Below, piece by piece: positions 1-52,550 of a DNA stretch of 64,000 nt (positions are counted from its first letter, which is position 1; every line of letters starts with the position of its first letter). The DNA is from Pythium myriotylum (taxonomy: Eukaryota > Oomycota > Peronosporomycetes > Pythiales > Pythiaceae), in assembly GCA_023091665.1 (NCBI GenBank), contig JALJCQ010000046.1, forward strand, positions 18,935-82,934, given 5' to 3'. The position numbers and the translations under genes were made by a program. The notes under the pieces are model-generated. The model was not told the DNA's origin, did no database searches, and worked only from the letters and a program-made list of their open reading frames with translations.

Positions 1-1
1 A

Positions 2-3000
2 GCACATTGTGCAGAGACGCCCGAAAACTTGCGTGGCTTCCTCGTGAAGCTTGAGCAGCCACGTGTACTGTCGATACGGGGTGATGGAGACTTGGGTGTA
101 GTCGACATGTCGCTCAGCAAACTCGATCGCGCTCGGCCACTTGTCGCCTTCACCAGCGAAGTCACGAAGAGATCGCAACTGAAAGACACGGGCAACTTGC
201 CGACGGAAGCTTCGTTGCGGCTCTGCAATCATGCTGAGAGAACGATGCTGGGACGGCGTTGTGTCGGAACGGCTGGTTGGGAGGAACTGGAAGTTCTTGT
301 CGCCATGGAACCAGATCGGTTGGTCGAGTGCAAACGCAAGACGGTCTTCTGGAGGGAGGTCGAGCCACGACACCGGCCACTTGATAGCGTACCAAGTCTT
401 CCAGGCCGCACGCCACCACGAAGAGAGCTGGTCCCACTCGATCGAGCCTCGATGCCGCCACGGACTGACGTAGAGAAAGTCGAGTGGCCTCTGCGGGCCC
501 CACCGCGGAAGACTGATCCGCAGCAGCTCGACTCCTGCTACCGTCCAGTTGCCGGTCGTCGATGCCGAAGCTGCCGTGAACTGAAGCAGGAGCTGCAGTG
601 ACTGTCGCTTGAGCACACCGTCGAGACTCGGTACCTGCAGACCCCCAGACTCGCGCGGCAGGTTGACAAATTCGTTCGAGATCAACTGGACATGCCGAGC
701 GTCGCGTTCGTAGCGCCGACTCAAGACGAACCGGTGTAGCGCGGCTTGCCACTTCTTCACTCGTCCTGGCGGCACAACAACGTGAGCAGTGTAGTGCCAC
801 AGACGTGAGAGCACCATGGTCTGGGCGACGAGGAGCCTGCCTTGGAGCGTCCGTGCGCGCCGAAACCACTGCTTGAACCCGTCAAAGAAGCGTCGATCGA
901 GGTCTTCAACAATCAATTCCGTTGTGCGTCGTTGACCGAACAGGAGACCGAGGAACTTGACCGTGGAGTCTTCATCGAGAACCTGCACACCTGGTATGCC
1001 CGGGCATCGCCGCGTTCGATGCAGCGACATCAGCACACACTTGTTCACGTTGAGCTTGGCGCCGGAGCCTTGACAGTATTCTTCGACCAACCCAAGTTGC
1101 GCCTCGACACCAGCGATAGAGCCCGACAGTAACGTCGAGTCGTCGGCGAAGAAAATACTCGCGACGGTGGCATCCGCTGTCAAGCAGATCCCATGTTCTT
1201 CGTGCTGGCGGAGCAGGTTACCGAGTGGCTCGATAACAAGCAAGAACAGCAGCGCCGACAGCGGATCACCTTGCTTGACTCCGCGCGTTGGGCAGAGCGG
1301 GTCTTGCACGAATCCGTTGATCATGAGATGCGCGTGTGGTCGAGTGTACAGGAGCTTCACCCACCCCGAGAACGCCCCGCCACATCCCATCCGATCGAGC
1401 ACCTGAAACATGTAGTTCCAGTTGACGCGGTCGTACGCCTTCTCAAAGTCGAGGAACATGGCGTAGGCTTCCTCGTCGCGCGCGGTGACGAGGTCTTGCA
1501 GGTCACTCACGAAACGAACGTGGTGATGCAGAGAGCGACCACGCACGAAAGCCTTCTGGTCTTGGTGCACAAGCTTGGTCAGGAACAACTGCAGTCGGAA
1601 AGCGAGAACCTTTGACAGTGCCTTCACGTCGACACCCATCAAAGCAATTGGGCGATAGTTGCCTGGGTCAGCTCGGGATCCCTTCTTGTGCAGCAGACTG
1701 ATCGCAGACTGGCGCTGACACCGAAGGAGCTCTCCTCGCTGAAGCTGGTAGTTGAACACGATCTCGAGGCATTCACCGAAGACGTCAGGAGCCACTTGGT
1801 AGAACGAAGCTGGAAGCCCATCCATCCCGGGTGCAGACGATGCCCGCATCTTCTTGATTGCACTAGCAAGGTCCGCCGCTGTGATCGGAGCGTTGAGGAT
1901 ATTTTGCTCGTCTTCAGACAGTCGGCGGTCGATCGTGTCGAGCATCCGGTCAATCTGGCTCTGCTCAGGCTCTTGGACGACAACACCACCGCGCTCAACA
2001 TCGCCCATGATACCGCCCCAGTGCTGACCGAAGACAGCCGCGATATCCGCGGGGTTGCTGGAGGCAGAGCCATCTCGAAGCCGCACTTCCTCGATGCTGA
2101 CTCTCCGCAAGGATCCGTCCAGCGGTCGAAAGAAGTACTTGGATGACATCTCCGCGTGTTGAGCCTGGAAGTCGAAAGCCGAGTCCTGGTTGTAAAGCCG
2201 CGCCGAGTTGATGCTGTCTTGGTATGCCGTCAGTGCGGTCTGGAACACCGTCTGCGCGCGATCGCTTCGCTCCGACCGGTATGCCGCAGCCGCGTGGGCA
2301 AGTGCCTGACGAGCTTCGGTGATGGCGGTCTCACCTTGACGCTTCAGCTTGCGCTGCAGAGCTTGAAGCTGACGACGCATGTCCTTCTTCCACTTGTGCC
2401 ACACCTTGCCCGGGTTGGAGGAGCGCCGTAACGCAGCAAGCACAGTCGTCGCTTCGCCTTGGATAGCTTCAACGATATCGGGGAAGTCGAGCATCGCCGA
2501 CTGGAAACGCCAGTACCCGTGGCCTTGAGGCTGGCTCATCGCGCGCAACACAACTTGATGTGCGAGATGGTCGCCGGCACCCTTGGGCTCAAAGTACGAG
2601 GAGTCACCGTATAGCGCGGTGCAGAAGTCCTCCGACATGAGGATGTAGTCGAGACGGTTGTGTCGAGGCTGTGGACCAGTGTAGACGCGTTCGTCGGGAT
2701 GGTGGATTCGCCAGGCATCCACGACACCGAGTTGGGCCAACCACGCCACACACGCGTTACCGCCGGTCGTTCCTGTCGCCCTTGGATCCGACGCATCGAC
2801 GAGGGGGTCAAGTGGCGTGTTGAGGTCACCGAGCACCAGGTGAGTCGCATTGTCTTCGAACACTTCGTACGGTAGCGCTTCGAAGAACCCCTTCTTCTCG
2901 AAGTTATCGACTGGCGCGTACACGTTGTGGATGTAGATCGGAGCACCGTTCGCGACGACCCGGACGACCAAGTAGCGGCCTTGAATAGTCAACGAAGACT

Positions 3001-3349
3001 GCTCACAAGCAGACTGAAAGCCGGGAAAGTCGGAGCGGAGCACTGTCATGACGCCACCCGATCGTGCAGCAACGGCAACTGGACTGTGCGCGTTGGTGTC
3101 GCTGACGAAGAGGCGGTGTTGAAATCTTGAGTCATGGTGGAATTGGAGCGTTGCACGATGATGCGAGTCGCGCAGCTTGGTCTCTTGGACGCACGAGAGA
3201 CTGTTCTTGATGAGCTGGTTCTCGATCAACAGGTGGCCGTTCTTCTTGATCCCGTTGGTGTTCACCGTCAAAAGACTGATGTTCTCCCACGAGACCTCGG
3301 CCGCGTCCGCCTCGACCGCTTTAGCAGTCGAGGCAGAGCGGTCCGGCAC
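2..3349 (-). CDS. LINE ORF2: APE endonuclease and reverse transcriptase, C-terminus outside window
   Basis: I translated this frame through all 1,116 codons from 3349 to the left edge and found no stop. The N-terminal domain is an APE-type endonuclease that nicks target DNA. Visible catalytic residues are N32 in NTNGI, E56 in VQETKL, D175/N177 in GDLN, D234 in NRLDYIL and H261 in GDH. A basic, probably coiled linker follows (about 330-480). The reverse transcriptase has NYRPI (564-568), FLDFEKAYDRV with D634, RGVKQGDPLS (about 689-698), FFADDSTLL with D736/D737 and KFLGL near 798. A tryptophan-rich stretch lies near 977-997. Enzyme and target-primed reverse transcription roles follow from the family. 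No ATG occurs before codon 101 (3047-3049), which is already inside the endonuclease. Translation therefore probably depends on +1 frameshifting from ORF1 or on termination-reinitiation. The frame is +1 relative to ORF1. Any C-terminal RNase H or zinc motif would be outside the window. Confidence 0.95.
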   Translation of the reverse strand, partial: MPDRSASTAKAVEADAAEVSWENISLLTVNTNGIKKNGHLLIENQLIKNSLSCVQETKLRDSHHRATLQFHHDSRFQHRLFVSDTNAHSPVAVAARSGGVMTVLRSDFPGFQSACEQSSLTIQGRYLVVRVVANGAPIYIHNVYAPVDNFEKKGFFEALPYEVFEDNATHLVLGDLNTPLDPLVDASDPRATGTTGGNACVAWLAQLGVVDAWRIHHPDERVYTGPQPRHNRLDYILMSEDFCTALYGDSSYFEPKGAGDHLAHQVVLRAMSQPQGHGYWRFQSAMLDFPDIVEAIQGEATTVLAALRRSSNPGKVWHKWKKDMRRQLQALQRKLKRQGETAITEARQALAHAAAAYRSERSDRAQTVFQTALTAYQDSINSARLYNQDSAFDFQAQHAEMSSKYFFRPLDGSLRRVSIEEVRLRDGSASSNPADIAAVFGQHWGGIMGDVERGGVVVQEPEQSQIDRMLDTIDRRLSEDEQNILNAPITAADLASAIKKMRASSAPGMDGLPASFYQVAPDVFGECLEIVFNYQLQRGELLRCQRQSAISLLHKKGSRADPGNYRPIALMGVDVKALSKVLAFRLQLFLTKLVHQDQKAFVRGRSLHHHVRFVSDLQDLVTARDEEAYAMFLDFEKAYDRVNWNYMFQVLDRMGCGGAFSGWVKLLYTRPHAHLMINGFVQDPLCPTRGVKQGDPLSALLFLLVIEPLGNLLRQHEEHGICLTADATVASIFFADDSTLLSGSIAGVEAQLGLVEEYCQGSGAKLNVNKCVLMSLHRTRRCPGIPGVQVLDEDSTVKFLGLLFGQRRTTELIVEDLDRRFFDGFKQWFRRARTLQGRLLVAQTMVLSRLWHYTAHVVVPPGRVKKWQAALHRFVLSRRYERDARHVQLISNEFVNLPRESGGLQVPSLDGVLKRQSLQLLLQFTAASASTTGNWTVAGVELLRISLPRWGPQRPLDFLYVSPWRHRGSIEWDQLSSWWRAAWKTWYAIKWPVSWLDLPPEDRLAFALDQPIWFHGDKNFQFLPTSRSDTTPSQHRSLSMIAEPQRSFRRQVARVFQLRSLRDFAGEGDKWPSAIEFAERHVDYTQVSITPYRQYTWLLKLHEEATQVFGRLCTMC

Positions 3350-6038
3350 CTAGTGTTGCGACGCCGTTGACAGCCGTAAGCTGGAGAACCGCTTCGTCGT
3401 CGGAGAAGTACAAGCCGCACGTGCGAAGATATTCGAGGTCGTCGAGAAGCTCGCCTTGCCACTGGATCTTCTCCCACACGGCAAAGATCTGTGCGCCCAA
3501 GTCGGAGCGCAGCAGTGCCAACAACACGTTGGGGTGGAGCAAACGACCGTTGAGTGCTGGAATCCACCCGACTGGAGCTCCGGTAAGGCGCTGGATCCAC
3601 ATGTCGCTCTGGAAGATCTGCGGCGCCGTGCACATGAGCATCAACTCGAACAACGAGAGCGCGCACGTGGCTCGCAAGAGCGCCGACATCCGCTCATCAC
3701 GATACCACCGTCCCGTCATCTTGAAGATGTCATTGCGATCCTTCGGCAGCTTCTCACCGTAGTGCGCAGCCCACTTGTGCGCGAAGGTCGTACACGAGTT
3801 TGGATCAGTCGCGCTCAACACACGATTGATCATGTGGAGCTGTGCGAGTTCCTTGACGTTGCCGCTGAGGTCACTCATCTCGCCGAGCAGCACAGAGTTG
3901 AACGCGAGCGGAGACTTCCCACCGGCAAGATGGCCGATCGTGTCCGGGTTGGCCGTGTTGCGGAGAGTCTTCCGAAGTGATTCCGCACGAACGTCCGCTG
4001 CAGCGATATGGTTCGACTGGAGCTGGAGGTCGGCGGTGGGCTCGGTCGTCTCGAGTTCGGCGAGGATCTCTTGGATTGACGTCGGTTCCTTCGTCTTCAT
4101 GACCAGAGTGTGGTGCTTGGTCAAGAAGTGACTCGACTCCTTGCTGGTCTTGATCGTGTCGGGACCCTTGACCTTGCGAGGCACGACCTGGAACCGCGGC
4201 AGGCTCGACTCGTTGAGCGCCGCATTGCAGCAGTCGAGTTCGAACTCGATGGAGTTCAACACTTCGAAGTAGTTGCTTGTCGCGATGCCTTGCACGGGCT
4301 TCGGTCGCGCCTTCTGTAACATGTCGGCAAAGTCGTCGGCGTAACGCGAGCGCTTGCCCTTGGACTTGGTCGATTTGGTTCCGTTTTCCGGACGATCTGC
4401 GTTGGACGCGGACAGACCGAGCGGCGGTGGCGGCGGCGGCAGAGACTTGGCTCCAGGCTGCGGACTACCCGGAGGCGTCAACAGCGATCCCGCGTGCGTA
4501 CCGACCGAGATGACGCTTGCAGAGTCTTGCGACTTGGACTCCGCTTGCGAGACACCGTTCTTCACCGCGTCTGCGTACGAAGTCGGAGCAGCCGGCTCGG
4601 ACGGTTGCACTGGTGCTGGCGGAGTAGGCTGGTTGATCTTGTCCAAGTCCAAAGCGTGTGGCGACACCTGACCGAAACCACGTCGCTGGGACGGGAACGC
4701 GGCGTCGCGCGCCAAAGCTGGGTACATGCGGTTGCCGAAGATGACTTGGTCGCACGTGAAGCCTTGCACACACAGCGCTCGTGGGCACGTCGCACTTCGA
4801 AAGTAGACGCGCCACGTTGCTGTCGTCATTCCGGACGCGAGGTTGACGTCGCGGAACGTGTCGTAAATCGGCTCGCTGCCGATGTCGAAGAACGCGCGCA
4901 GAAGACCTTCGTTGTCGAAGTTGCTGTCGACGCTCGAGATGTCGATGTAGAAGCGATCGGCGAGGACGTCGAAGTCTTGGAACATGTACTTGCCACCGAG
5001 GATCTTGACTTCCTGACGCGCGAGGCGTTCGCACGCAGCACGTGACTTGACCTTGACGCGGATTTCTCCGCCACGACCCTTGGAGATCTGGCCGAGTTCT
5101 TGAAGCTTGATCTGCTCGGTGACCACGGGGCTCCCGTTGTCCTTGAGAAAAGACGCCATGATCTTGTTGATGCCGGTACGCTCGAACGCGCGACCAGTGT
5201 CGATGGTCATGACGTAACGAGCGCGCGGGAGCTCGTACGGGCGCGCTTGTTCAACTGACGTGAAGAGCGAGGCCCAGTCGCCACCGTTCTCGTACAGCGC
5301 GTCAATCGCTTCGATATCCGCAGCACACGGTCGAGGCAGCACCACACGACTGGTCGCCGAGACGGGAGTTCTGTCACGGCGAATCTCGGTTGGACGGCGT
5401 AGAAGAGCACCAAGCGAAGGCGTCGCACCTGCCGCACTGGCAGGCGGTTGCTGAGCATCCGGAATCGGATCCGGGGTCGAATCAGTCGTAGTCGAGTCTT
5501 CAACAGTTGATTCGTCGGGGCTTGAGGCGAGACTGAGCTGGAGCGAGGTCGCCGCCATCATCAAGTCGTCGTCGTCATCGTCGCCACCGGAGACAGCAGT
5601 AGTCCCAGTGTTCGCGGGCGAGTCGGTCGAACTGGAAAGCGCAACGGAGATCTCGACTCCAGACGCCACCGGAGCGGAGCCTGTCACGAGCACCGTCATA
5701 CCGGCACCGACATCCACGATGCGGGCGGTAGAGGCGGGTCCGTCGGCGGTTGAAGGAGCGTCGGCGTCGTCGACCGCGGAGGTGGTGGTCGTGCCGGAGC
5801 TGACTGGGGCTTGCGCATTCACTGACTTCGAAGTCACGTGAGATACGGGCGCAGGCGTCGCAGAGTCGTCGGCAGTGTTACTGGCACCATCCAGACCAGA
5901 TGGTGGCTCACAATGCGTGAGACTTCCCGAATCTTGTGCAGAGACGGGACGGAGCAGCTGCGCGGGAGGGTTCTCACCCACAAAGTCGAGGTCGGAGGGG
6001 GATGGGCGAGCCGAGTCGATCTGGTTCGCTGGCTTCAT
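3321..6038 (-). CDS. LINE ORF1 protein (gag-like RNA-binding protein), 905 aa
   Basis: ORF1 proteins of LINEs coat the element RNA and chaperone reverse transcription. The frame starts at the first ATG of the element (6036-6038) and ends with TAA at 3321. Residues 1-240 are low-complexity Ser/Thr/Ala/Pro with an acidic GGDDDDDD run at 151-158. Residues about 270-430 are globular. Around 361-420 (RFYIDISSV, then RAFFDIGSEP, then WRVYFRSATCP) the pattern resembles an RRM-like fold. A canonical CCHC zinc knuckle is missing; only a C-x4-C-x5-C cluster is seen near 418-429. A Pro-rich linker follows with SYADAV (487-492), a six-proline run (534-539), a basic patch KSTKSKGKRSR that could be a nuclear signal, and SNYFEVLN near 588. 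The C-terminal 300 residues are helical-looking and unassigned. The end overlaps the ORF2 open frame by 29 nt. ORF1 identity rests on position and composition, so domain calls are tentative. Confidence 0.88.
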   Translation of the reverse strand: MKPANQIDSARPSPSDLDFVGENPPAQLLRPVSAQDSGSLTHCEPPSGLDGASNTADDSATPAPVSHVTSKSVNAQAPVSSGTTTTSAVDDADAPSTADGPASTARIVDVGAGMTVLVTGSAPVASGVEISVALSSSTDSPANTGTTAVSGGDDDDDDLMMAATSLQLSLASSPDESTVEDSTTTDSTPDPIPDAQQPPASAAGATPSLGALLRRPTEIRRDRTPVSATSRVVLPRPCAADIEAIDALYENGGDWASLFTSVEQARPYELPRARYVMTIDTGRAFERTGINKIMASFLKDNGSPVVTEQIKLQELGQISKGRGGEIRVKVKSRAACERLARQEVKILGGKYMFQDFDVLADRFYIDISSVDSNFDNEGLLRAFFDIGSEPIYDTFRDVNLASGMTTATWRVYFRSATCPRALCVQGFTCDQVIFGNRMYPALARDAAFPSQRRGFGQVSPHALDLDKINQPTPPAPVQPSEPAAPTSYADAVKNGVSQAESKSQDSASVISVGTHAGSLLTPPGSPQPGAKSLPPPPPPLGLSASNADRPENGTKSTKSKGKRSRYADDFADMLQKARPKPVQGIATSNYFEVLNSIEFELDCCNAALNESSLPRFQVVPRKVKGPDTIKTSKESSHFLTKHHTLVMKTKEPTSIQEILAELETTEPTADLQLQSNHIAAADVRAESLRKTLRNTANPDTIGHLAGGKSPLAFNSVLLGEMSDLSGNVKELAQLHMINRVLSATDPNSCTTFAHKWAAHYGEKLPKDRNDIFKMTGRWYRDERMSALLRATCALSLFELMLMCTAPQIFQSDMWIQRLTGAPVGWIPALNGRLLHPNVLLALLRSDLGAQIFAVWEKIQWQGELLDDLEYLRTCGLYFSDDEAVLQLTAVNGVATLGAGPLCLDC

Positions 6039-6132
6039 CTTCGTTCGACGGGAAGGCTGGGAGGCTGGTTGGCTGGTTACTTCGGCTGTTTGCTTGGATC
6101 GACTTGTGCTCGACGAGGCAAAACGAGAAGTG
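6039..6132 (-). other. LINE 5' untranslated region
   Basis: These are the 94 nt between the tRNA junction and the ORF1 ATG. On the element strand it begins CACTTCTCGTTTTGCCTCG and continues as a C/A-rich stretch with repeated CCAGCC. The short inserts in the array begin TCACTTCGCAATTTGCTCGC on the same strand. The shared CACTTC start and TTTGC a few bases later may reflect a common 5' end. An internal promoter would be expected here, but I recognise no promoter motif. Confidence 0.7.
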
Positions 6133-6139
6133 GCGCGGG

Positions 6140-6150
6140 TAGCTCAGTGG
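6140..6150 (+). promoter_or_regulatory. Pol III A box inside tRNA-Cys (representative, unit 1)
   Basis: TAGCTCAGTGG at tRNA positions 8-19 matches the internal A box. The retroelement insertion point (after T16) falls inside it. The target duplication repeats bases 1-16, so the box is complete again in the copy on the right of each insert and broken in the left fragment. Confidence 0.9.
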
Positions 6151-6182
6151 TAGAGCTTTCGATTGCAGCTCGAAGGGTCACT

Positions 6183-6193
6183 GGTTCGAACCC
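6183..6193 (+). promoter_or_regulatory. Pol III B box inside tRNA-Cys (representative, unit 1)
   Basis: GGTTCGAACCC in the T arm is a perfect B box and is present in all 42 loci, including the 5'-truncated one at 52487. The five 16-nt fragments left of inserts have no B box and should not be transcribed as tRNA. Confidence 0.92.
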
Positions 6194-6206
6194 GGTCTCG
6201 CGCTTC

Positions 6207-6211
6207 TTTTT
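6207..6211 (+). terminator. Pol III terminator T5 (representative, unit 1)
   Basis: A run of five T follows the tRNA 3' end by two bases (TCTTTTTG). It recurs 74-78 nt after each full tRNA start. T-runs in this context end Pol III transcription, so each gene should make a short precursor with a trailer of a few bases. Confidence 0.85.
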
Positions 6212-6212
6212 G

Positions 6213-6328
6213 ATCCACGCCCGACTCCACTCACATACACAAACACACCGCATACTACAACAACCAAAACAATAAAACAACACAACTAACCACCACACAA
6301 TCAAACACAAACACACACACCAGCACAT
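6213..6328 (+). other. C/A-rich spacer just downstream of the tRNA (representative, unit 1)
   Basis: About 115 bases almost free of G, built from CACA, ACAA and CCAC words. It is present in every unit at the same place. No gene or known regulatory motif is visible. It contrasts with the G/T-rich spacer upstream of each tRNA. Site 158 (C or T at 6290) is one of the diagnostic variants. Confidence 0.85.
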
Positions 6329-6820
6329 TATCTATCACCTCCTTCCCGTCACCCTCATCCTATCCTCGACAATGCTCGCTCTTCGTCGTGCTTGCTTGTC
6401 TTTCTTTCCACACTCCACCGCTGCCCGCATGTTGGCTCCATTTGACGAGCATGTCACCATCTAACCAGCGTGTGCGTTCAGCTGACAAGGTGAACCAGGA
6501 GTCGGCACCAACCCCCGCACTTGTTCCCACGCATGCGGCTTCAATCCCCTCGCACTCGTTGGTTCTAGCCCCTCACCGCGGACCCAGCGTGGGTGGGTGA
6601 GTGGGTGGGTCCCAACTACGAGTCCATCGACCACGTTCAGGTTGGTGTAGTCGTTCGAGTCTGTCGTGCCAACACATACGCGCAGTTGAGTCGAGATCCT
6701 GTGTGGACAATAGACACCTTCGCTCAGCTCGCACAGACGACACGAGGCGAAGGATGAAGGACGGATCAGCCCACCTGTGTGGGGTGGCATCAACCGGAAG
6801 GCAAGCGGGATGCTCGTTTC
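6329..6820 (+). other. Mixed-composition spacer between C/A-rich tract and hexamer tract (representative, unit 1)
   Basis: I see no gene here. Short open frames exist on both strands, but they are only as conserved as the rest of the repeat. The stretch contains diagnostic variants at 6446, 6536 and 6548 and the G4 motif at 6591-6609. A GGTTCTAGCCC word near 6560 recalls a B box but has no tRNA-like stems around it. Confidence 0.7.
6591..6609 (+). other. G-quadruplex motif in spacer (representative, unit 1)
   Basis: Four GGG runs with loops of 1, 5 and 1 nt (GGGTGGGTGAGTGGGTGGG) match the canonical G4 pattern. It sits 458 nt after the tRNA start in each unit. In units 17, 18, 19 and 21 the last run reads GAG, which removes the fourth G-tract. 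Confidence 0.75.
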
Positions 6821-6880
6821 GGTTTCGGTCGCGGTTTCGGTATCGGTTTCGGTCGCGGTCGCGGTCGCGGTCGCGGTTCC
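6821..6880 (+). repeat. Hexamer microrepeat (GGTCGC / GGTTTC / GGTATC), n = 9 in unit 1
   Basis: Nine hexamers precede a closing GGTTCC. The order is GGTTTC, GGTCGC, GGTTTC, GGTATC, GGTTTC, then four GGTCGC. The tract starts 688 nt after the tRNA start in each unit, and n varies from 6 to 14. Units 3 and 15-26 lack the GGTTTC after GGTATC. Unit 34 carries a GT insertion (53197-53204 reads GGTGTCGC) and unit 36 a one-base deletion (GGTTC at 55767-55771). These frame-breaking changes argue that the Arg-Gly or Arg-Ser reading frames are not proteins. Confidence 0.95.
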
Positions 6881-7124
6881 GAGTTCAGTTTGGCTTTTGG
6901 TTTCGTTGATGTGAGGATAGCACTCATCATGCGTGAGAGAATGATAGTACGACGAGATAACGGGCTGACAAGCATGATCGGTAGGCAGACGTATAGGCCA
7001 ATCGAGTCGTGGACGGCGTCGGATGGATGGATGGCATTTGGGTCGGGTGTTTGACAGCAGTGCGGGGTCACACGCATTCGGAAGGAGCTGTGTATCACCA
7101 CGTAGGGATGGATGGTCAGATGGA
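6881..7124 (+). other. Spacer between the two microrepeats (representative, unit 1)
   Basis: Unique-looking spacer conserved between units, with a GGAT tetramer run near 7021. I see no gene, RNA structure or known site in it. Confidence 0.6.
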
Positions 7125-7144
7125 TCTGGGGTCTGGGGTCTGGG
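7125..7144 (+). repeat. Heptamer microrepeat TCTGGGG, m = 2 in unit 1
   Basis: Two full TCTGGGG copies plus a partial third. With m = 2 there are three G-runs; with m = 3 there are four, which meets the G4 pattern. m is 3 in units 3-8, 25-36, 38, 39, 41 and 42 and 2 elsewhere. The seven-base step shifts reading frames across the spacer. Confidence 0.92.
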
Positions 7145-7402
7145 TAATGTGTGCGTAGAGGTAAAGCAATGGCATGCGGTGGGGGTGTAGTGTGGGGAGC
7201 GTTGTGTTGGGTTGTTGGGATCCGTGTGCGCCGGTGCGGCGTGTGGTGGCGTGTGTGTATCTGGTTGTGGCGGTTTGTTGGTTAGTTGTTCGCGTGGAGG
7301 CGATGATGTGTGTATTGTGTTGTTGTTGGTGTAATGTGAAAGTTGTCCAAGTGTATTGTCAAAGCGGGGTTTGTTGAGTGAGCGTAGGAGTCTGGTTTCG
7401 AC
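7145..7402 (+). other. G/T-rich spacer upstream of the next tRNA (representative, unit 1)
   Basis: About 250 bases rich in G and T and poor in C on the plus strand, ending 5' of the tRNA. With the C/A-rich tract after the tRNA it makes a sharp strand-composition switch centred on each gene. Unit 1 has GTAGAGGTAAAG where others have GTAGAGGGTAAAG. No TATA-like or other upstream Pol III element is recognised. Confidence 0.7.
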
Positions 7403-7474
7403 GCGCGGGTAGCTCAGTGGTAGAGCTTTCGATTGCAGCTCGAAGGGTCACTGGTTCGAACCCGGTCTCGCGCT
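7403..7474 (+). tRNA. tRNA-Cys(GCA), unit 2
   Basis: Identical to unit 1 and preceded by the normal G/T-rich spacer. Unit: n=9, m=2, 1,271 bp, haplotype CCCC, with GATCCATG in the spacer where unit 1 has GATCCGTG. Confidence 0.97.
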
Positions 7475-8673
7475 TCTTTTTGATCCACGCCCGACTCCAC
7501 TCACATACACAAACACACCGCATACTACAACAACCAAAACAATAAAACAACACAACTAACCACCACACAATCAAACACAAACACACACACCAGCACATTA
7601 TCTATCACCTCCTTCCCGTCACCCTCATCCTATCCTCGACAATGCTCGCTCTTCGTCGTGCTTGCTTGTCTTTCTTTCCACACTCCACCGCTGCCCGCAT
7701 GTTGGCTCCATTTGACGAGCATGTCACCATCTAACCAGCGTGTGCGTTCAGCTGACAAGGTGAACCAGGAGTCGGCACCAACCCCCGCACTTGTTCCCAC
7801 GCATGCGGCTTCAATCCCCTCGCACTCGTTGGTTCTAGCCCCTCACCGCGGACCCAGCGTGGGTGGGTGAGTGGGTGGGTCCCAACTACGAGTCCATCGA
7901 CCACGTTCAGGTTGGTGTAGTCGTTCGAGTCTGTCGTGCCAACACATACGCGCAGTTGAGTCGAGATCCTGTGTGGACAATAGACACCTTCGCTCAGCTC
8001 GCACAGACGACACGAGGCGAAGGATGAAGGACGGATCAGCCCACCTGTGTGGGGTGGCATCAACCGGAAGGCAAGCGGGATGCTCGTTTCGGTTTCGGTC
8101 GCGGTTTCGGTATCGGTTTCGGTCGCGGTCGCGGTCGCGGTCGCGGTTCCGAGTTCAGTTTGGCTTTTGGTTTCGTTGATGTGAGGATAGCACTCATCAT
8201 GCGTGAGAGAATGATAGTACGACGAGATAACGGGCTGACAAGCATGATCGGTAGGCAGACGTATAGGCCAATCGAGTCGTGGACGGCGTCGGATGGATGG
8301 ATGGCATTTGGGTCGGGTGTTTGACAGCAGTGCGGGGTCACACGCATTCGGAAGGAGCTGTGTATCACCACGTAGGGATGGATGGTCAGATGGATCTGGG
8401 GTCTGGGGTCTGGGTAATGTGTGCGTAGAGGGTAAAGCAATGGCATGCGGTGGGGGTGTAGTGTGGGGAGCGTTGTGTTGGGTTGTTGGGATCCATGTGC
8501 GCCGGTGCGGCGTGTGGTGGCGTGTGTGTATCTGGTTGTGGCGGTTTGTTGGTTAGTTGTTCGCGTGGAGGCGATGATGTGTGTATTGTGTTGTTGTTGG
8601 TGTAATGTGAAAGTTGTCCAAGTGTATTGTCAAAGCGGGGTTTGTTGAGTGAGCGTAGGAGTCTGGTTTCGAC

Positions 8674-42409: not shown

Positions 42410-42481
42410 GCGCGGGTAGCTCAGTGGTAGAGCTTTCGATTGCAGCTCGAAGGGTCACTGGTTCGAACCCGGTCTCGCGCT
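42410..42481 (+). tRNA. tRNA-Cys(GCA), unit 28
   Basis: Canonical copy. n=13, m=3, 1,302 bp. Confidence 0.97.
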
Positions 42482-45019: not shown

Positions 45020-45091
45020 GCGCGGGTAGCTCAGTGGTAGAGCTTTCGATTGCAGCTCGAAGGGTCACTGGTTCGAACCCGGTCTCGCGCT
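45020..45091 (+). tRNA. tRNA-Cys(GCA), unit 30
   Basis: Canonical copy. n=11, m=3, 1,290 bp. Confidence 0.97.
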
Positions 45092-46309
45092 TCTTTTTGA
45101 TCCACGCCCGACTCCACTCACATACACAAACACACCGCATACTACAACAACCAAAACAATAAAACAACACAACTAATCACCACACAATCAAACACAAACA
45201 CACACACCAGCACATTATCTATCACCTCCTTCCCGTCACCCTCATCCTATCCTCGACAATGCTCGCTCTTCGTCGTGCTTGCTTGTCTTTCTTTCCACAC
45301 TCCACCGCTGCCCGCATGTTGGCTCCATTTGATGAGCATGTCACCATCTAACCAGCGTGTGCGTTCAGCTGACAAGGTGAACCAGGAGTCGGCACCAACC
45401 CCCGCACTTGTTCCCACGCATGTGGCTTCAATCCACTCGCACTCGTTGGTTCTAGCCCCTCACCGCGGACCCAGCGTGGGTGGGTGAGTGGGTGGGTCCC
45501 AACTACGAGTCCATCGACCACGTTCAGGTTGGTGTAGTCGTTCGAGTCTGTCGTGCCAACACATACGCGCAGTTGAGTCGAGATCCTGTGTGGACAATAG
45601 ACACCTTCGCTCAGCTCGCACAGACGACACGAGGCGAAGGATGAAGGACGGATCAGCCCACCTGTGTGGGGTGGCATCAACCGGAAGGCAAGCGGGATGC
45701 TCGTTTCGGTTTCGGTCGCGGTTTCGGTATCGGTTTCGGTCGCGGTCGCGGTCGCGGTCGCGGTCGCGGTCGCGGTTCCGAGTTCAGTTTGGCTTTTGGT
45801 TTCGTTGATGTGAGGATAGCACTCATCATGCGTGAGAGAATGATAGTACGACGAGATAACGGGCTGACAAGCATGATCGGTAGGCAGACGTATAGGCCAA
45901 TCGAGTCGTGGACGGCGTCGGATGGATGGATGGCATTTGGGTCGGGTGTTTGACAGCAGTGCGGGGTCACACGCATTCGGAAGGAGCTGTGTATCACCAC
46001 GTAGGGATGGATGGTCAGATGGATCTGGGGTCTGGGGTCTGGGGTCTGGGTAATGTGTGCGTAGAGGGTAAAGCAATGGCATGCGGTGGGGGTGTAGTGT
46101 GGGGAGCGTTGTGTTGGGTTGTTGGGATCCGTGTGCGCCGGTGCGGCGTGTGGTGGCGTGTGTGTATCTGGTTGTGGCGGTTTGTTGGTTAGTTGTTCGC
46201 GTGGAGGCGATGATGTGTGTATTGTGTTGTTGTTGGTGTAATGTGAAAGTTGTCCAAGTGTATTGTCAAAGCGGGGTTTGTTGAGTGAGCGTAGGAGTCT
46301 GGTTTCGAC

Positions 46310-46381
46310 GCGCGGGTAGCTCAGTGGTAGAGCTTTCGATTGCAGCTCGAAGGGTCACTGGTTCGAACCCGGTCTCGCGCT
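46310..46381 (+). tRNA. tRNA-Cys(GCA), unit 31
   Basis: Canonical copy. n=9, m=3, 1,278 bp. It starts the first of three consecutive unit-plus-insert blocks of about 2,057 bp. Confidence 0.97.
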
Positions 46382-47587
46382 TCTTTTTGATCCACGCCCG
46401 ACTCCACTCACATACACAAACACACCGCATACTACAACAACCAAAACAATAAAACAACACAACTAATCACCACACAATCAAACACAAACACACACACCAG
46501 CACATTATCTATCACCTCCTTCCCGTCACCCTCATCCTATCCTCGACAATGCTCGCTCTTCGTCGTGCTTGCTTGTCTTTCTTTCCACACTCCACCGCTG
46601 CCCGCATGTTGGCTCCATTTGATGAGCATGTCACCATCTAACCAGCGTGTGCGTTCAGCTGACAAGGTGAACCAGGAGTCGGCACCAACCCCCGCACTTG
46701 TTCCCACGCATGTGGCTTCAATCCACTCGCACTCGTTGGTTCTAGCCCCTCACCGCGGACCCAGCGTGGGTGGGTGAGTGGGTGGGTCCCAACTACGAGT
46801 CCATCGACCACGTTCAGGTTGGTGTAGTCGTTCGAGTCTGTCGTGCCAACACATACGCGCAGTTGAGTCGAGATCCTGTGTGGACAATAGACACCTTCGC
46901 TCAGCTCGCACAGACGACACGAGGCGAAGGATGAAGGACGGATCAGCCCACCTGTGTGGGGTGGCATCAACCGGAAGGCAAGCGGGATGCTCGTTTCGGT
47001 TTCGGTCGCGGTTTCGGTATCGGTTTCGGTCGCGGTCGCGGTCGCGGTCGCGGTTCCGAGTTCAGTTTGGCTTTTGGTTTCGTTGATGTGAGGATAGCAC
47101 TCATCATGCGTGAGAGAATGATAGTACGACGAGATAACGGGCTGACAAGCATGATCGGTAGGCAGACGTATAGGCCAATCGAGTCGTGGACGGCGTCGGA
47201 TGGATGGATGGCATTTGGGTCGGGTGTTTGACAGCAGTGCGGGGTCACACGCATTCGGAAGGAGCTGTGTATCACCACGTAGGGATGGATGGTCAGATGG
47301 ATCTGGGGTCTGGGGTCTGGGGTCTGGGTAATGTGTGCGTAGAGGGTAAAGCAATGGCATGCGGTGGGGGTGTAGTGTGGGGAGCGTTGTGTTGGGTTGT
47401 TGGGATCCGTGTGCGCCGGTGCGGCGTGTGGTGGCGTGTGTGTATCTGGTTGTGGCGGTTTGTTGGTTAGTTGTTCGCGTGGAGGCGATGATGTGTGTAT
47501 TGTGTTGTTGTTGGTGTAATGTGAAAGTTGTCCAAGTGTATTGTCAAAGCGGGGTTTGTTGAGTGAGCGTAGGAGTCTGGTTTCGAC

Positions 47588-47603
47588 GCGCGGGTAGCTC
47601 AGT
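47588..47603 (+). pseudogene. tRNA-Cys 5' fragment (16 nt), left of insert C
   Basis: Left target duplication, matched by 48367-48382; no B box or 3' half. Confidence 0.95.
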
Positions 47604-48366
47604 TTCAAGGCGTCTGTATTGCTGCACTAGCATTTACGACTGACTTCTAACTGCTCGCTAATCCCGTGCGGGTTCTATGTTGCTAAGGTTCGGTTGAGTC
47701 TCGTGGTTGGCTGGTCGGTTTGTGCTGAGAGGATGAATCCTTGCGTCATGGTTCGTTGGGTTGTTGAGGTTGTTGTTCTGTTGTCGTTGAAGCTGGGTAC
47801 TGGGTTAACTTGACCTTCATTTGCTGGTTTGCTGGTATGTTGATGCTGGGTGAGTTGAGTGTTGGTTGGGTTGAAGCTGGGTTGGCTGAATGCCGGTTGG
47901 GTTGATGCTGGGTTGCTTGAATGCTGGTTGGGTTGAGGTTGGTGTCGGTGAGTGCTGGTTGGGTTGAGGTTGGTGTCGGTGAGTGTTGGTTACCCAACGG
48001 TCTCGTGAGTGAAGGTTGGTGGCTGGGTGCCGTGAGTGTTGGTCACAGCGTGGGTTGATCAGCGGTGGGTTGATATTAGAGTCGACCGGGTGGCCGAGCT
48101 CTGGCGCGCGCTCTCCATGTGGTGAATGTCGGCTCTCCCGATGAAGCCGAAGGAAGCACGCATGGGATGCCGACTGGTCGGCGCGGTGGCGGCAGCGTCC
48201 CGATGCCAAGCTTCTTGCGCTTGGTCTTGGCTCTCGCAGCACCCTTGGTCATGGCGACTGGGTGTGGAGAGGGTCGGGGGTGATGGGCTGGCAGCTGGGC
48301 TGGGTGCTTGGACTGGACACTTCTGGACTTGGTCACTTGAGGGGTAGCGAGCAAATTGCGAAGTGA
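47604..48366 (-). mobile_element. Short tRNA-Cys-inserted retroelement, copy C (763 bp)
   Basis: Exact 16-bp target duplication and two 31-bp repeats. It shares GAGGTTGTTGTTC near 47765 with D and E, and GGTCACAGCG near 48045 with D only. Being near-identical to D in the same setting, it looks like a product of array duplication rather than a separate insertion. The short frame ends at 48076. Confidence 0.85.
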
Positions 48367-48438
48367 GCGCGGGTAGCTCAGTGGTAGAGCTTTCGATTGC
48401 AGCTCGAAGGGTCACTGGTTCGAACCCGGTCTCGCGCT
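48367..48438 (+). tRNA. tRNA-Cys(GCA), unit 32 (regenerated right of insert C)
   Basis: Complete canonical gene with the insert as its 5' flank. n=9, m=3, 1,278 bp, with a private G-to-A (GCGGTAGGGG) near 49423. Confidence 0.97.
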
Positions 48439-49644
48439 TCTTTTTGATCCACGCCCGACTCCACTCACATACACAAACACACCGCATACTACAACAACCA
48501 AAACAATAAAACAACACAACTAATCACCACACAATCAAACACAAACACACACACCAGCACATTATCTATCACCTCCTTCCCGTCACCCTCATCCTATCCT
48601 CGACAATGCTCGCTCTTCGTCGTGCTTGCTTGTCTTTCTTTCCACACTCCACCGCTGCCCGCATGTTGGCTCCATTTGATGAGCATGTCACCATCTAACC
48701 AGCGTGTGCGTTCAGCTGACAAGGTGAACCAGGAGTCGGCACCAACCCCCGCACTTGTTCCCACGCATGTGGCTTCAATCCACTCGCACTCGTTGGTTCT
48801 AGCCCCTCACCGCGGACCCAGCGTGGGTGGGTGAGTGGGTGGGTCCCAACTACGAGTCCATCGACCACGTTCAGGTTGGTGTAGTCGTTCGAGTCTGTCG
48901 TGCCAACACATACGCGCAGTTGAGTCGAGATCCTGTGTGGACAATAGACACCTTCGCTCAGCTCGCACAGACGACACGAGGCGAAGGATGAAGGACGGAT
49001 CAGCCCACCTGTGTGGGGTGGCATCAACCGGAAGGCAAGCGGGATGCTCGTTTCGGTTTCGGTCGCGGTTTCGGTATCGGTTTCGGTCGCGGTCGCGGTC
49101 GCGGTCGCGGTTCCGAGTTCAGTTTGGCTTTTGGTTTCGTTGATGTGAGGATAGCACTCATCATGCGTGAGAGAATGATAGTACGACGAGATAACGGGCT
49201 GACAAGCATGATCGGTAGGCAGACGTATAGGCCAATCGAGTCGTGGACGGCGTCGGATGGATGGATGGCATTTGGGTCGGGTGTTTGACAGCAGTGCGGG
49301 GTCACACGCATTCGGAAGGAGCTGTGTATCACCACGTAGGGATGGATGGTCAGATGGATCTGGGGTCTGGGGTCTGGGGTCTGGGTAATGTGTGCGTAGA
49401 GGGTAAAGCAATGGCATGCGGTAGGGGTGTAGTGTGGGGAGCGTTGTGTTGGGTTGTTGGGATCCGTGTGCGCCGGTGCGGCGTGTGGTGGCGTGTGTGT
49501 ATCTGGTTGTGGCGGTTTGTTGGTTAGTTGTTCGCGTGGAGGCGATGATGTGTGTATTGTGTTGTTGTTGGTGTAATGTGAAAGTTGTCCAAGTGTATTG
49601 TCAAAGCGGGGTTTGTTGAGTGAGCGTAGGAGTCTGGTTTCGAC

Positions 49645-49660
49645 GCGCGGGTAGCTCAGT
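49645..49660 (+). pseudogene. tRNA-Cys 5' fragment (16 nt), left of insert D
   Basis: Left target duplication, matched by 50424-50439. Confidence 0.95.
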
Positions 49661-50423
49661 TTCAAGGCGTCTGTATTGCTGCACTAGCATTTACGACTGA
49701 CTTCTAACTGCTCGCTAATCCCGTGCGGGTTCTATGTTGCTAAGGTTCGGTTGAGTCTCGTGGTTGGCTGGTCGGTTTGTGCTGAGAGGATGAATCCTTG
49801 CGTCATGGTTCGTTGGGTTGTTGAGGTTGTTGTTCTGTTGTCGTTGAAGCTGGGTACTGGGTTAACTTGACCTTCATTTGCTGGTTTGCTGGTATGTTGA
49901 TGCTGGGTGAGTTGAGTGTTGGTTGGGTTGAAGCTGGGTTGGCTGAATGCCGGTTGGGTTGATGCTGGGTTGCTTGAATGCTGGTTGGGTTGAGGTTGGT
50001 GTCGGTGAGTGCTGGTTGGGTTGAGGTTGGTGTCGGTGAGTGTTGGTTACCCAACGGTCTCGTGAGTGAAGGTTGGTGGCTGGGTGCCGTGAGTGTTGGT
50101 CACAGCGTGGGTTGATCAGCGGTGGGTTGATATTAGAGTCGACCGGGTGGCCGAGCTCTGGCGCGCGCTCTCCATGTGGTGAATGTCGGCTCTCCCGATG
50201 AAGCCGAAGGAAGCACGCATGGGATGCCGACTGGTCGGCGCGGTGGCGGCAGCGTCCCGATGCCAAGCTTCTTGCGCTTGGTCTTGGCTCTCGCAGCACC
50301 CTTGGTCATGGCGACTGGGTGTGGAGAGGGTCGGGGGTGATGGGCTGGCAGCTGGGCTGGGTGCTTGGACTGGACACTTCTGGACTTGGTCACTTGAGGG
50401 GTAGCGAGCAAATTGCGAAGTGA
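49661..50423 (-). mobile_element. Short tRNA-Cys-inserted retroelement, copy D (763 bp)
   Basis: No difference from copy C was noticed; same boundaries and 16-bp duplication. Short frame ends at 50133. Confidence 0.85.
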
Positions 50424-50495
50424 GCGCGGGTAGCTCAGTGGTAGAGCTTTCGATTGCAGCTCGAAGGGTCACTGGTTCGAACCCGGTCTCGCGCT
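50424..50495 (+). tRNA. tRNA-Cys(GCA), unit 33 (regenerated right of insert D)
   Basis: Complete canonical gene. n=10, m=3, 1,284 bp. It has ACAATGGACACC where most units have ACAATAGACACC, shared only with unit 35, and the GTTGTGCTGGG variant. Confidence 0.97.
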
Positions 50496-51707
50496 TCTTT
50501 TTGATCCACGCCCGACTCCACTCACATACACAAACACACCGCATACTACAACAACCAAAACAATAAAACAACACAACTAATCACCACACAATCAAACACA
50601 AACACACACACCAGCACATTATCTATCACCTCCTTCCCGTCACCCTCATCCTATCCTCGACAATGCTCGCTCTTCGTCGTGCTTGCTTGTCTTTCTTTCC
50701 ACACTCCACCGCTGCCCGCATGTTGGCTCCATTTGATGAGCATGTCACCATCTAACCAGCGTGTGCGTTCAGCTGACAAGGTGAACCAGGAGTCGGCACC
50801 AACCCCCGCACTTGTTCCCACGCATGTGGCTTCAATCCACTCGCACTCGTTGGTTCTAGCCCCTCACCGCGGACCCAGCGTGGGTGGGTGAGTGGGTGGG
50901 TCCCAACTACGAGTCCATCGACCACGTTCAGGTTGGTGTAGTCGTTCGAGTCTGTCGTGCCAACACATACGCGCAGTTGAGTCGAGATCCTGTGTGGACA
51001 ATGGACACCTTCGCTCAGCTCGCACAGACGACACGAGGCGAAGGATGAAGGACGGATCAGCCCACCTGTGTGGGGTGGCATCAACCGGAAGGCAAGCGGG
51101 ATGCTCGTTTCGGTTTCGGTCGCGGTTTCGGTATCGGTTTCGGTCGCGGTCGCGGTCGCGGTCGCGGTCGCGGTTCCGAGTTCAGTTTGGCTTTTGGTTT
51201 CGTTGATGTGAGGATAGCACTCATCATGCGTGAGAGAATGATAGTACGACGAGATAACGGGCTGACAAGCATGATCGGTAGGCAGACGTATAGGCCAATC
51301 GAGTCGTGGACGGCGTCGGATGGATGGATGGCATTTGGGTCGGGTGTTTGACAGCAGTGCGGGGTCACACGCATTCGGAAGGAGCTGTGTATCACCACGT
51401 AGGGATGGATGGTCAGATGGATCTGGGGTCTGGGGTCTGGGGTCTGGGTAATGTGTGCGTAGAGGGTAAAGCAATGGCATGCGGTGGGGGTGTAGTGTGG
51501 GGAGCGTTGTGCTGGGTTGTTGGGATCCGTGTGCGCCGGTGCGGCGTGTGGTGGCGTGTGTGTATCTGGTTGTGGCGGTTTGTTGGTTAGTTGTTCGCGT
51601 GGAGGCGATGATGTGTGTATTGTGTTGTTGTTGGTGTAATGTGAAAGTTGTCCAAGTGTATTGTCAAAGCGGGGTTTGTTGAGTGAGCGTAGGAGTCTGG
51701 TTTCGAC

Positions 51708-51723
51708 GCGCGGGTAGCTCAGT
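51708..51723 (+). pseudogene. tRNA-Cys 5' fragment (16 nt), left of insert E
   Basis: The fragment is complete on this side, but only its last 8 bases (AGCTCAGT) are repeated at the right border, at 52487-52494. Confidence 0.95.
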
Positions 51724-52486
51724 TTCAAGGCGTCTGTATTGCTGCACTAGCATTTACGACTGACTTCTAACTGCTCGCTAATCCCGTGCGGGTTCTATGT
51801 TGCTAAGGTTCGGTTGAGTCTCGTGGTTGGCTGGTCGGTTTGTGCTGAGAGGATGAATCCTTGCGTCATGGTTCGTTGGGTTGTTGAGGTTGTTGTTCTG
51901 TTGTCGTTGAAGCTGGGTACTGGGTTAACTTGACCTTCATTTGCTGGTTTGCTGGTATGTTGATGCTGGGTGAGTTGAGTGTTGGTTGGGTTGAAGCTGG
52001 GTTGGCTGAATGCCGGTTGGGTTGATGCTGGGTTGCTTGAATGCTGGTTGGGTTGAGGTTGGTGTCGGTGAGTGCTGGTTGGGTTGAGGTTGGTGTCGGT
52101 GAGTGTTGGTTACCCAACGGTCTCGTGAGTGAAGGTTGGTGGCTGGGTGCCGTGAGTGTTGGTCACGGCGTGGGTTGATCAGCGGTGGGTTGATATTAGA
52201 GTCGACCAGGTGGCCGAGCTCTGGCGCGCGCTCTCCATGTGGTGAATGTCGGCTCTCCCGATGAAGCCGAAGGAAGCACGCATGGGATGCCGACTGGTCG
52301 GCGCGGTGGCGGCAGCGTCCCGATGCCAAGCTTCTTGCGCTTGGTCTTGGCTCTCGCAGCACCCTTGGTCATGGCGACTGGGTGTGGAGAGGGTCGGGGG
52401 TGATGGGCTGGCAGCTGGGCTGGGTGCTTGGACTGGACACTTCTGGACTTGGTCACTTGAGGGGTAGCGAGCAAATTGCGAAGTGA
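51724..52486 (-). mobile_element. Short tRNA-Cys-inserted retroelement, copy E (763 bp, 8-bp duplication)
   Basis: Same core and ends as C and D, but the right duplication is only 8 bp, so the neighbouring tRNA has lost its start. At internal sites it is a mosaic. It has GAGGTTGTTGTTC like C and D, but GGTCACGGCG like A and B and CGACCAGGTGG like B. Either a separate insertion with a shorter stagger or a later 8-bp deletion would explain it. Short frame ends at 52196. Confidence 0.83.
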
Positions 52487-52550
52487 AGCTCAGTGGTAGA
52501 GCTTTCGATTGCAGCTCGAAGGGTCACTGGTTCGAACCCGGTCTCGCGCT
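52487..52550 (+). pseudogene. 5'-truncated tRNA-Cys (lacks nucleotides 1-8), unit 34
   Basis: Insert E is followed directly by AGCTCAGTGG, so the whole 5' acceptor strand and T8 are missing. The anticodon arm, T arm, B box and terminator remain. Without the 5' acceptor strand it cannot make a normal tRNA. Unit: hexamer tract with a GT insertion (53197-53204), m=3, haplotype TTTA. Confidence 0.93.

Follow-up and report, generated by a model that had tools for sequence, protein, structure and literature searches.

A tandem array of tRNA-Cys(GCA) genes in the oomycete Pythium myriotylum is interrupted by a LINE and by five short inserts that all meet the same gene in one orientation, which raises the question of what these elements recognize: this particular tRNA gene, a short motif within it, or tRNA genes as such. 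The window analyzed here, a stretch of 64,000 nucleotides, contains the following features of the array, which counts 52 tRNA-Cys(GCA) genes across the whole 82.9-kb contig.

6132..62857, plus strand: tandem tRNA-Cys(GCA) target array, 41 genes called in the window, spacing mostly 1.25-1.3 kb
1..6132, minus strand: LINE, 5′ end at 6132, running beyond the left edge of the window to C46:17,724 (L001:8224), about 7.34 kb in total
6133..6204, plus strand: complete tRNA-Cys at the LINE 5′ end, rebuilt via a 14-bp duplication
21522..21535, plus strand: tRNA-Cys nt 1-14, left duplication copy of short insert 1
21536..22331, minus strand: short element (SINE-like), insert 1, 796 bp
22332..22403, plus strand: complete tRNA-Cys rebuilt after insert 1
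31243..32124, minus strand: short element, insert 2, with 117 extra nt at its 5′ end (32008-32124)
32125..32196, plus strand: complete tRNA-Cys rebuilt after insert 2
47602..48366, minus strand: short element, insert 3, 765 bp; tRNA rebuilt at 48367-48438
49659..50423, minus strand: short element, insert 4, 765 bp; tRNA rebuilt at 50424-50495
51722..52486, minus strand: short element, insert 5, 765 bp; tRNA not rebuilt, beginning at A9 (52487)

The initial annotation had described both elements as meeting tRNA-Cys in the same orientation, and the junctions agree. The LINE 5′ end at 6132 directly abuts the complete gene starting at 6133, and the short inserts begin at 21536, 31243, 47602, 49659, and 51722, each after GCGCGGGTAGCTCA. 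The left junction of the LINE, expected to be a tRNA fragment as well, lies just beyond the window edge and is indeed a fragment of tRNA-Cys (C46:17,710-17,724; L001:8210-8224). The break, which had been placed between T16 and G18 of the D loop, is instead located after A14. The G that follows it is the element's own, since targets without G15 (Arg, the Val-adjacent site, and box B of Ala) also show it.

Target Sites of the LINE Across the Genome

Genome-wide, 46 LINE 3′ ends were found and all were read. In 43 of them the site is tRNA-type and the end lies in the A box (D arm); 42 of these sites are identified tRNA genes, and the one on C16 is a putative tRNA gene. Of the remaining three ends, one is inserted into the tRNA-like A box of a different LINE copy, one is 3 bp upstream of tRNA-Val, and one is at a non-tRNA site on C12, where a 32-nt LINE stub is joined at GGAGCTGCTCA/GAGG (the slash marks the junction) with a 17-bp duplication and no tRNA gene is called. 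The LINE joins the tRNA-sense strand after A14, within the Pol III A box TRGYNNA/R, and is always antisense to the tRNA. When 3′ and 5′ junctions are both counted, at least 15 tRNA isoacceptors are targeted. In 38 of the 41 LINE copies, the 5′ stretch contains a tRNA called by ARAGORN (Cys, Ala-AGC, Ile-TAT, Ile-AAT, Lys-CTT, Lys-TTT, Trp, Thr-AGT, Phe, Tyr, Asn, Arg-ACG, Pro-AGG, and the Val-adjacent one), and the Met-CAT and Thr-TGT targets were identified from flanks equal to those of called tRNAs. The LINE 5′ end is present in 40 of the 41 copies and falls into 24 distinct 5′ junction classes. Since copies within tandem arrays, of which there are many, are not independent of one another, these 24 classes are a safer count than the 46 3′ ends. 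All counts are based on one genome and on copies with no more than one to two mismatches in the tail pattern.

A target restricted to tRNA-Cys, as first proposed for this locus, is ruled out, as only five of the 46 LINE 3′ ends are found there and 41 lie elsewhere. The broader part of that proposal, a LINE with a fixed site inside multicopy tRNA genes, holds, with the A box of at least 15 isoacceptors in place of one gene. Judged by its insertion sites, the LINE is target-specific, with most copies at one site of multicopy genes and with target duplications. Two off-register events are still at tRNA genes, namely the LINE 3 bp upstream of Val and a short element in box B of Ala (GGTTCA/A).

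Rebuilding of the Target Gene

Among the 34 LINE copies with a readable duplication, 29 have one of 14-15 bp, equal to tRNA nt 1-14; duplications of 16, 18, and 21 bp also occur, and two further ones are unreadable. Because the duplication covers tRNA nt 1-14, a complete tRNA adjoins the 5′ end of the element. Landing sites are thus not consumed, as a typical insertion duplicates as much of the gene as is needed for an intact one to remain. Some prophages likewise restore the tRNA gene they enter. The initial annotation overlooked this duplication, which rebuilds the gene beside most insertions. The rebuilt tRNA genes are targeted again by both elements, resulting in stacks in which the short element is followed by the LINE (Lys-TTT, Met, and Thr-TGT) or the LINE by the short element (Thr-AGT).

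It is conceivable, though on balance doubtful, that the 14-bp stagger is an adaptation, as it matches the distance from A14 to tRNA nt 1. The new tRNA would have the 5′ end of the element as its leader, the target would never be exhausted, stacking would be possible, and the Pol III complex on the rebuilt gene would sit on the 94-nt 5′ UTR, where it could mark, insulate, or even help drive LINE transcription.

The Short Element

The LINE and the short element have identical last 18 nt, a likeness that the initial annotation had suggested looking for. This shared 3′ end has 220 matches in the genome at up to 2 mismatches (reversed control 0), and the exact short-element tail (...TATTG) is directly preceded by TRGYNNAG in 167 places (reversed control 0). 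Short-element 5′ ends with an A box within the following 12 nt number 125 (control 0), and 96 of the 100 inserts listed from these restore 13 nt or more of the tRNA start, while at the remaining four the tRNA is not rebuilt. In the window, a complete tRNA-Cys stands on the right side of four of the five inserts; insert 5 (51722-52486) has a duplication of only AGCTCA, leaving a tRNA-Cys without its first 8 nt. The short element uses the same A-box site at no fewer than eight isoacceptors. The idea of a short partner family is therefore upheld by the same 18-nt end and the same site, and the family is probably mobilized by the LINE enzymes.

A consensus scan of both strands of the short element for a Pol III promoter gave no good pair of A box and B box, and the element may be a non-autonomous one of a kind other than a SINE. 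The 117-nt 5′ extension of insert 2 matched no Rfam family at E up to 1. A possible hairpin upstream of the shared 3′ tail of the two elements appears in single folds only, as the alignment-based fold gave none. A conserved 5′ hairpin common to both was not retained: the single folds are alike, but the alignment-based fold found no common structure.

Coding Capacity and Class of the LINE

The LINE carries two open reading frames and a short 5′ UTR in the window.

3321..6038, minus strand: ORF1, 905 aa, with a predicted RRM-like region (about residues 270-448) and a helical C-terminal domain
2..3349, minus strand: ORF2, N-terminal 1116 aa, with apurinic-type endonuclease and reverse transcriptase; the 1388-aa frame continues left of the window (L001)
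6039..6132, minus strand: 5′ UTR of 94 nt, head to head with the adjoining tRNA

The outermost part of the 5′ UTR varies little or not at all among 40 of the 41 copies, with 62-nt variants differing at 1-3 positions. ORF2 matches the Pfam profiles PF03372 (25.0 bits, just above the cut-off of 24.5) and PF00078, with the endonuclease N-terminal to the reverse transcriptase (RT) in a single frame. Its closest solved structure is human L1 ORF2p (best E 5e-56, residues 50-849; another entry, 24-855), followed by R2-type RTs (best E 8e-23), which match the RT portion only. Profile searches found no RNase H family in ORF2 residues 1-1116 or in the C-terminal 460 aa, and ORF2 had no match in viral_contigs. 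Related LINEs exist in oomycetes, with best ORF2 matches 58-68% identical, and the separate ORF1 that precedes ORF2 also has relatives in other oomycetes. The element is accordingly classed with the L1-group LINEs by its domain order, separate ORF1, and closest solved structures, and may belong to either the L1 or the Tx1 clade. A Foldseek comparison of the predicted C-terminal domain of ORF1 (mean pLDDT 89) with PDB and BFVD gave no match below E 0.5, so the domain offers no clue to tethering.

Site Choice

Taken together, the data make it highly probable that an L1-group LINE uses tRNA genes as its landing site, with a junction after A14, a short partner, and two layers of site choice. The strand opened after A14 would prime reverse transcription from the 3′ tail of the LINE (target-primed reverse transcription), and a second-strand cut near tRNA nt 1 would set the 14-bp stagger. 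The LINE enzymes would also recognize the shared tail in the RNA of the short element and copy it. The first layer of site choice would be a local preference of the endonuclease for approximately GYYYA/R, and the second would be recognition of the tRNA gene itself, with Pol III factors on the gene as the most likely intermediaries. This last step, to which the site statistics and the two off-register events at tRNA genes point, is the least certain one, and we regard it as moderately probable.

The alternative to a second layer is that an extended A-box sequence suffices for the endonuclease, without the help of any tRNA-bound factor. Enzymes of the R1 and Tx1 clades are held to choose their targets by sequence, and here the junction has one-nucleotide precision in nearly all tRNA targets. 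The stub on C12 still reads GCTCA/GAGG, and the core of the box B insertion is similar. The stub shows that GCTCA/G can serve the enzyme as a site where no tRNA gene is called, so sequence accounts for much of the choice. However, box-A-like sequences are about as common outside tRNA genes as inside, and with the exception of the stub, none of the 46 LINE 3′ ends lies at an outside site; thus, a short motif alone does not explain site choice. TAGCTCAG occurs 1748 times (reversed control 4271), with 714 occurrences in tRNA D arms (control 6), and TRGYYYARNGG occurs 2314 times (reversed control 3424). On C1, where all 99 TRGYYYARNGG sites were listed, 30 belong to an Arg array that holds all five LINE 3′ ends of this contig, and the other 69, a few of which may be other tRNA genes, have none. 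If half of the sites were outside, finding none of 22 junction classes there would have P ~2e-7, a value that ignores selection, and selection against insertions elsewhere would likewise empty non-tRNA sites. Conversely, the Arg, Pro, and Val-adjacent targets depart strongly from the common motif, yet are used. Choice by sequence alone is therefore rather unlikely.

Selection could also act by itself, if the LINE inserted widely and only insertions in tRNA genes survived since the gene is rebuilt. This would agree with the complete tRNA left by most insertions and with the existence of the non-tRNA stub. Selection is nevertheless unlikely to fix the junction to one nucleotide at A14 across unrelated tRNAs, and the outside box-A-like sites, some of them presumably neutral, hold no LINE but the stub, making this explanation very improbable. 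Even less credit can be given to passive spread, in which unequal crossing-over of the tRNA arrays brought one old insertion to many copies and no targeting took place. Runs of identical junctions within one array, such as four Lys-CTT copies on C15, and the regular short-element spacing of 779/810 bp on C4 are as expected from such copying, but the tRNA genes occupied by the LINE are of at least 15 kinds and are spread over many contigs, and most copies have their own tRNA duplication, with 24 distinct 5′ junctions. As sole cause, array copying is refuted by these diverse targets and junctions, although it adds copy number within arrays. Finally, the tRNA pieces could be part of a tRNA-tailed element inserted elsewhere. 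Such an origin would fit the tRNA-like stretch that lies antisense in the LINE 3′ part, for which an Rfam search at E up to 1 returned no tRNA, but it is refuted by flanking tRNAs that vary by locus and agree between the two sides of each copy.

Comparison With Known Elements

Among known LINEs that target multicopy genes, many disrupt the gene copy into which they insert. The tRNA-linked LINEs found in print land beside the gene, whereas the LINE described here enters a highly conserved part of it and leaves an intact-looking copy, and this rebuilding is seen across many tRNA families of one genome. No LINE with an A14 tRNA target and this repair geometry was found in the literature searched, which was open access.

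The same spot in the tRNA is used by Dada DNA transposons, which insert in tRNA genes at the A box; as their target sites are given in PMC8869645 and PMC3706591, nt 8-13 serve as the target in five fish lineages and in Perkinsus families, with TAGCTC then AG in three Perkinsus families. Dada elements are DDE transposons with 6-7 bp duplications, too short to restore tRNA nt 1-14, whereas the present element has an RT and an endonuclease and duplications of mostly 14-15 bp. Each Perkinsus Dada family described there is tied to its own tRNA, in contrast to the one LINE family at 15 or more isoacceptors.

TRE5 and TRE3 of Dictyostelium are likewise non-LTR elements; their endonuclease is of the APE type, they use tRNA genes in general, and Pol III factors are implicated. 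According to the accounts in PMC5391098 and PMC5911963, their insertions lie outside tRNA genes, about 40-54 bp upstream or 40-150 bp downstream, whereas the LINE lies inside the gene, after A14, in 43 of 46 cases. NLTR-A of Dictyostelium purpureum sits right at the 5′ edge of the tRNA gene, 2-6 bp upstream of the mature tRNA sequence (PMC5006619, PMC5911963). It carries an RNase H domain, which profile search did not find in the LINE, and the passages on NLTR-A in these two papers describe no duplication covering the tRNA start, such as the LINE has.

Utopia, a LINE of oomycetes with a restriction-like endonuclease and, in oomycetes, RNase H, targets U2 snRNA genes (PMC4640811). It shares with the present LINE the host group and the strict targeting of a tandem small-RNA gene, but is described there as disrupting the U2 genes it enters, while the LINE mostly leaves a complete tRNA. 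R1, R2, Keno, Mutsu, and Dewa, whose targets are named in PMC3706591, each occupy one site in a multicopy RNA gene or its spacer, and each keeps to a single gene type (for Dewa, a tRNA-Leu spacer), whereas the site used here is a motif common to most tRNA genes. Arrays of tRNA genes are also treated for Entamoeba in PMC2652664.

The insertion geometry is also of interest for placing DNA at a defined site within a tRNA gene without harm to it. Since a single genome here allows equal motifs within tRNA genes to be compared with those elsewhere, two questions that are commonly entangled become separable: how the endonuclease reads its site and how insertion is guided by Pol III chromatin.

LINE Anatomy and Landing Sites

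In the window (C46:18,935-82,934), tRNA-Cys(GCA) genes follow one another in tandem at intervals of mostly 1.25-1.3 kb. The array as such is not new, since tandem single-tRNA arrays, tRNA-Cys among them, are on record for Phytophthora infestans (PMC9584435). The LINE within it has the following features (C46, contig JALJCQ010000046.1):

Window 1-6132, minus strand: LINE, with its 5′ end at 6132, continuing left to C46:17,724
C46:17,710-17,723: GCGCGGGTAGCTCA, adjoining the LINE 3′ end left of the window
Window 3324-4283, minus strand: ORF1 residues 586-905, predicted helical domain
C46:17,912-17,985 (L001:8412-8485): antisense tRNA-like stretch in the LINE 3′ part

ORF1 comprises 905 aa, and ORF2 is a frame of 1388 aa encoding an apurinic-type endonuclease and a reverse transcriptase. 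The nearest solved structure to ORF2 is human L1 ORF2p, and its named relatives occur in Globisporangium splendens, Peronospora, Lagenidium, and further oomycetes, which makes a Pythium-like oomycete the likely host. The helical domain of ORF1 was predicted confidently (mean pLDDT 89) and is kept across ORF1 proteins of oomycete LINEs; a Foldseek search with it against PDB and viral models returned nothing below E 0.5. The antisense tRNA-like stretch, in which A and B boxes (the Pol III promoter boxes inside tRNA genes) are recognizable, was also observed at loci L004, L006, and L008, and was found in all nine aligned LINE copies, which form two subfamilies with differing surroundings.

Across the genome (58.7 Mb, 55 contigs), ORF2 has 42 matches, of which just the top candidates were scored; they represent 41 LINE copies, one copy being split. 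At least 1115 of the 1116 ORF2 query residues are covered in 38 of the 41 copies, at 96-100% identity, and 37 of these 38 are stop-free. Copies this complete, similar, and largely intact indicate a young family.

The LINE 3′ end was located by collecting all genome matches at no more than one mismatch, and the left flank was read for each of the resulting 46. The junction follows tRNA nt 1-14, or a TTTCA-slipped form thereof, in 43. The identity of the tRNA is known for 42 of these; the remaining one, on contig C16 (...GATAGTCTA|, the bar marking the insertion point), has a tRNA-like look, its other side not being located. There are three exceptions. One, at C18:619,002, struck the tRNA-like A box that a second LINE copy carries in its 3′ part, and another, on C43 (GGTCA|AGT), lies just outside a tRNA-Val gene, 3 bp upstream of it. 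The third, on C12 (GGAGCTGCTCA|GAGG), is a stub that retains 32 nt of the LINE 3′ end and has a 17-bp duplication; tRNA calling on the surrounding 321 bases gave none. The initial annotation had taken tRNA-Cys to be the target, which proved too narrow, as just 5 of the 46 LINE 3′ ends sit there. Eight of the 46 were not linked to an ORF2 match in our own comparison and perhaps represent truncated or decayed copies. Extra TTTCA-type units occur at some 3′ junctions (loci L083, L004, L005, L007, L122, and L071), as if reverse transcription had begun more than once.

The Short Element

The last 18 nt of the short element are those of the LINE, and this tail occurs at 220 places genome-wide. The first bases, CACTTC, likewise agree, and single-sequence folds allow a hairpin just upstream of the shared tail in both elements. 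As a consensus scan revealed no clear Pol III promoter in the short element, it is termed SINE-like.

TTTCAAGGCGTCTGTATTGCTGC was found at 172 places with up to one mismatch, and TRGYNNAG immediately preceding an exact tail ending in TATTG at 167; the two patterns are not nested and were compared among 100 listed matches of each. Among these, three TTTCAAGGCGTCTGTATTGCTGC places are absent from the TRGYNNAG-tail set. Two are slipped junctions (C11:1,631,857, seen in locus L071, and C13:1,622,506), and the third is a genuine exception in box B of tRNA-Ala(TGC), GGGTTCA|A. An A box lies within 12 nt of the short-element 5′ end at 125 places. The targets among 100 listed 5′ ends are 23 Thr-TGT, 19 Cys, 18 Met-CAT, 17 Lys-TTT, 11 Thr-AGT, 9 Lys-CTT, 2 Ile-TAT, and 1 Ala-TGC.

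Around insert 5 (window 51708-52549), AGCTCA alone is duplicated and the tRNA-Cys gene is without its first 8 nt; among the matches listed, four Cys copies on C14 also have an AGCTCA-only duplication. The 5′ end of insert 2 is extended by 117 nt (window 32008-32124), which have no match in Rfam and look as if reverse transcription had switched template. An internal repeat of about 31 bp, about 230-420 nt from the 3′ end, varies in copy number, which fits the insert lengths of 765 and 796 bp in the window.

Cut Position and Restoration of the tRNA Gene

Of the 34 copies that allowed the target duplication to be measured, 29 have one of 14 or 15 bp; some lengths may include at least one base shared by chance with the element's own end. 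At tRNA targets the duplicated stretch is nt 1-14, at times with one leading base. Longer duplications were found in one Arg copy (16), one Ala copy (18), and one Lys-TTT copy (21), the last because a short element already preceded that tRNA; in two copies (Thr and Arg), a slipped 3′ junction masks the duplication.

Directly after the cut, nearly all targets have G, but Arg has A15. A G nevertheless stands at the left junction in Arg, as it does in the Val-adjacent target and in box B of Ala. Since G is present where the target lacks it, it belongs to the element, and the junction sequences thus place the cut after A14 rather than between T16 and G18 as initially proposed. Because the duplication starts at nt 1, a whole tRNA stands behind the element. 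In 38 of the 41 LINE copies ARAGORN recognizes a tRNA within the 5′ stretch, and the other three are the tRNA-like site, a tRNA re-hit by the short element, and a copy missing its 5′ end.

The 5′ end is kept by 40 of the 41 LINE copies, which display 24 distinct 5′ junctions, a low count given that one junction class merges Lys-CTT and Lys-TTT. In 22 classes the junction falls in the A box of a tRNA gene, and the other two are the tRNA-like and Val-adjacent sites. Stacks in the order short element, tRNA nt 1-14, LINE occur at Lys-TTT (L104/L064), Met (L118), and Thr-TGT (L119), and the opposite order, LINE then short element, at Thr-AGT (L071). Each stack requires a first insertion and then another into the gene that it restored. 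On C4 and C13, short elements form long runs, which may stem from such repeated insertion or from unequal crossing-over.

Determinants of Site Choice

TAGCTCAG occurs at 1748 genome sites vs. 4271 for the reversed control motif, and TRGYYYARNGG at 2314 vs. 3424; as the controls exceed the counts, many such occurrences are simply background. Inside tRNA D arms, TAGCTCAG occurs 714 times vs. 6 in the control, the other sites including element-split half sites and nearly a thousand dispersed ones (extrapolated from contig C1). On C1, 30 of 99 TRGYYYARNGG sites form a tRNA-Arg array and 69 lie elsewhere, a few of which may be further tRNA genes (e.g., three TAGTCTAATGG at a spacing of 2.8 kb); the array holds every one of the five LINE 3′ ends on C1. 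Poor motif matches are nonetheless used at Arg, Pro, and the Val-adjacent site. From these patterns, a short motif alone cannot be all that directs targeting, with the caveat that non-tRNA sites could be empty through selection against insertions there. The simplest reading would be a loose local preference, approximately GYYYA|R, plus recognition of the tRNA gene. For TRE5-A, ORF1 is reported to contact TFIIIB proteins and box B to be required (PMC5391098; PMC5911963); by analogy, the most natural candidate for guiding the LINE to tRNA genes would be a Pol III factor. Targeting may act in two layers, and the stagger may be adaptive.

Comparison with Known Elements

Dada DNA transposons enter tRNA nt 8-13 (PMC8869645), so use of the A box for insertion had been described before in a different element class. 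NLTR-A is placed 2-6 bp upstream of tRNA genes (PMC5006619). In the open-access literature, we found no LINE combining an A-box cut, at least 15 isoacceptors, and a gene-restoring duplication. The case for the LINE anatomy and target is strong.

tRNA Neighborhoods on C11

On C11, tRNA-Trp (L082, L100, L106, and L107) has a natural 5′ flank, GAGCAAAGCGAATGTG, that resembles, in tRNA orientation, both the LINE 5′ end GCAAAACGAGAAGTG and the short-element 5′ end GAGCAAATTGCGAAGTG; the likeness could go back to an old element or to a leader signal common to them. At C11:1,613,674-1,639,680, successive tRNA D arms switch from one strand to the other, probably because a unit of two genes, tRNA-Thr(AGT) and tRNA-Trp(CCA), is repeated in tandem.
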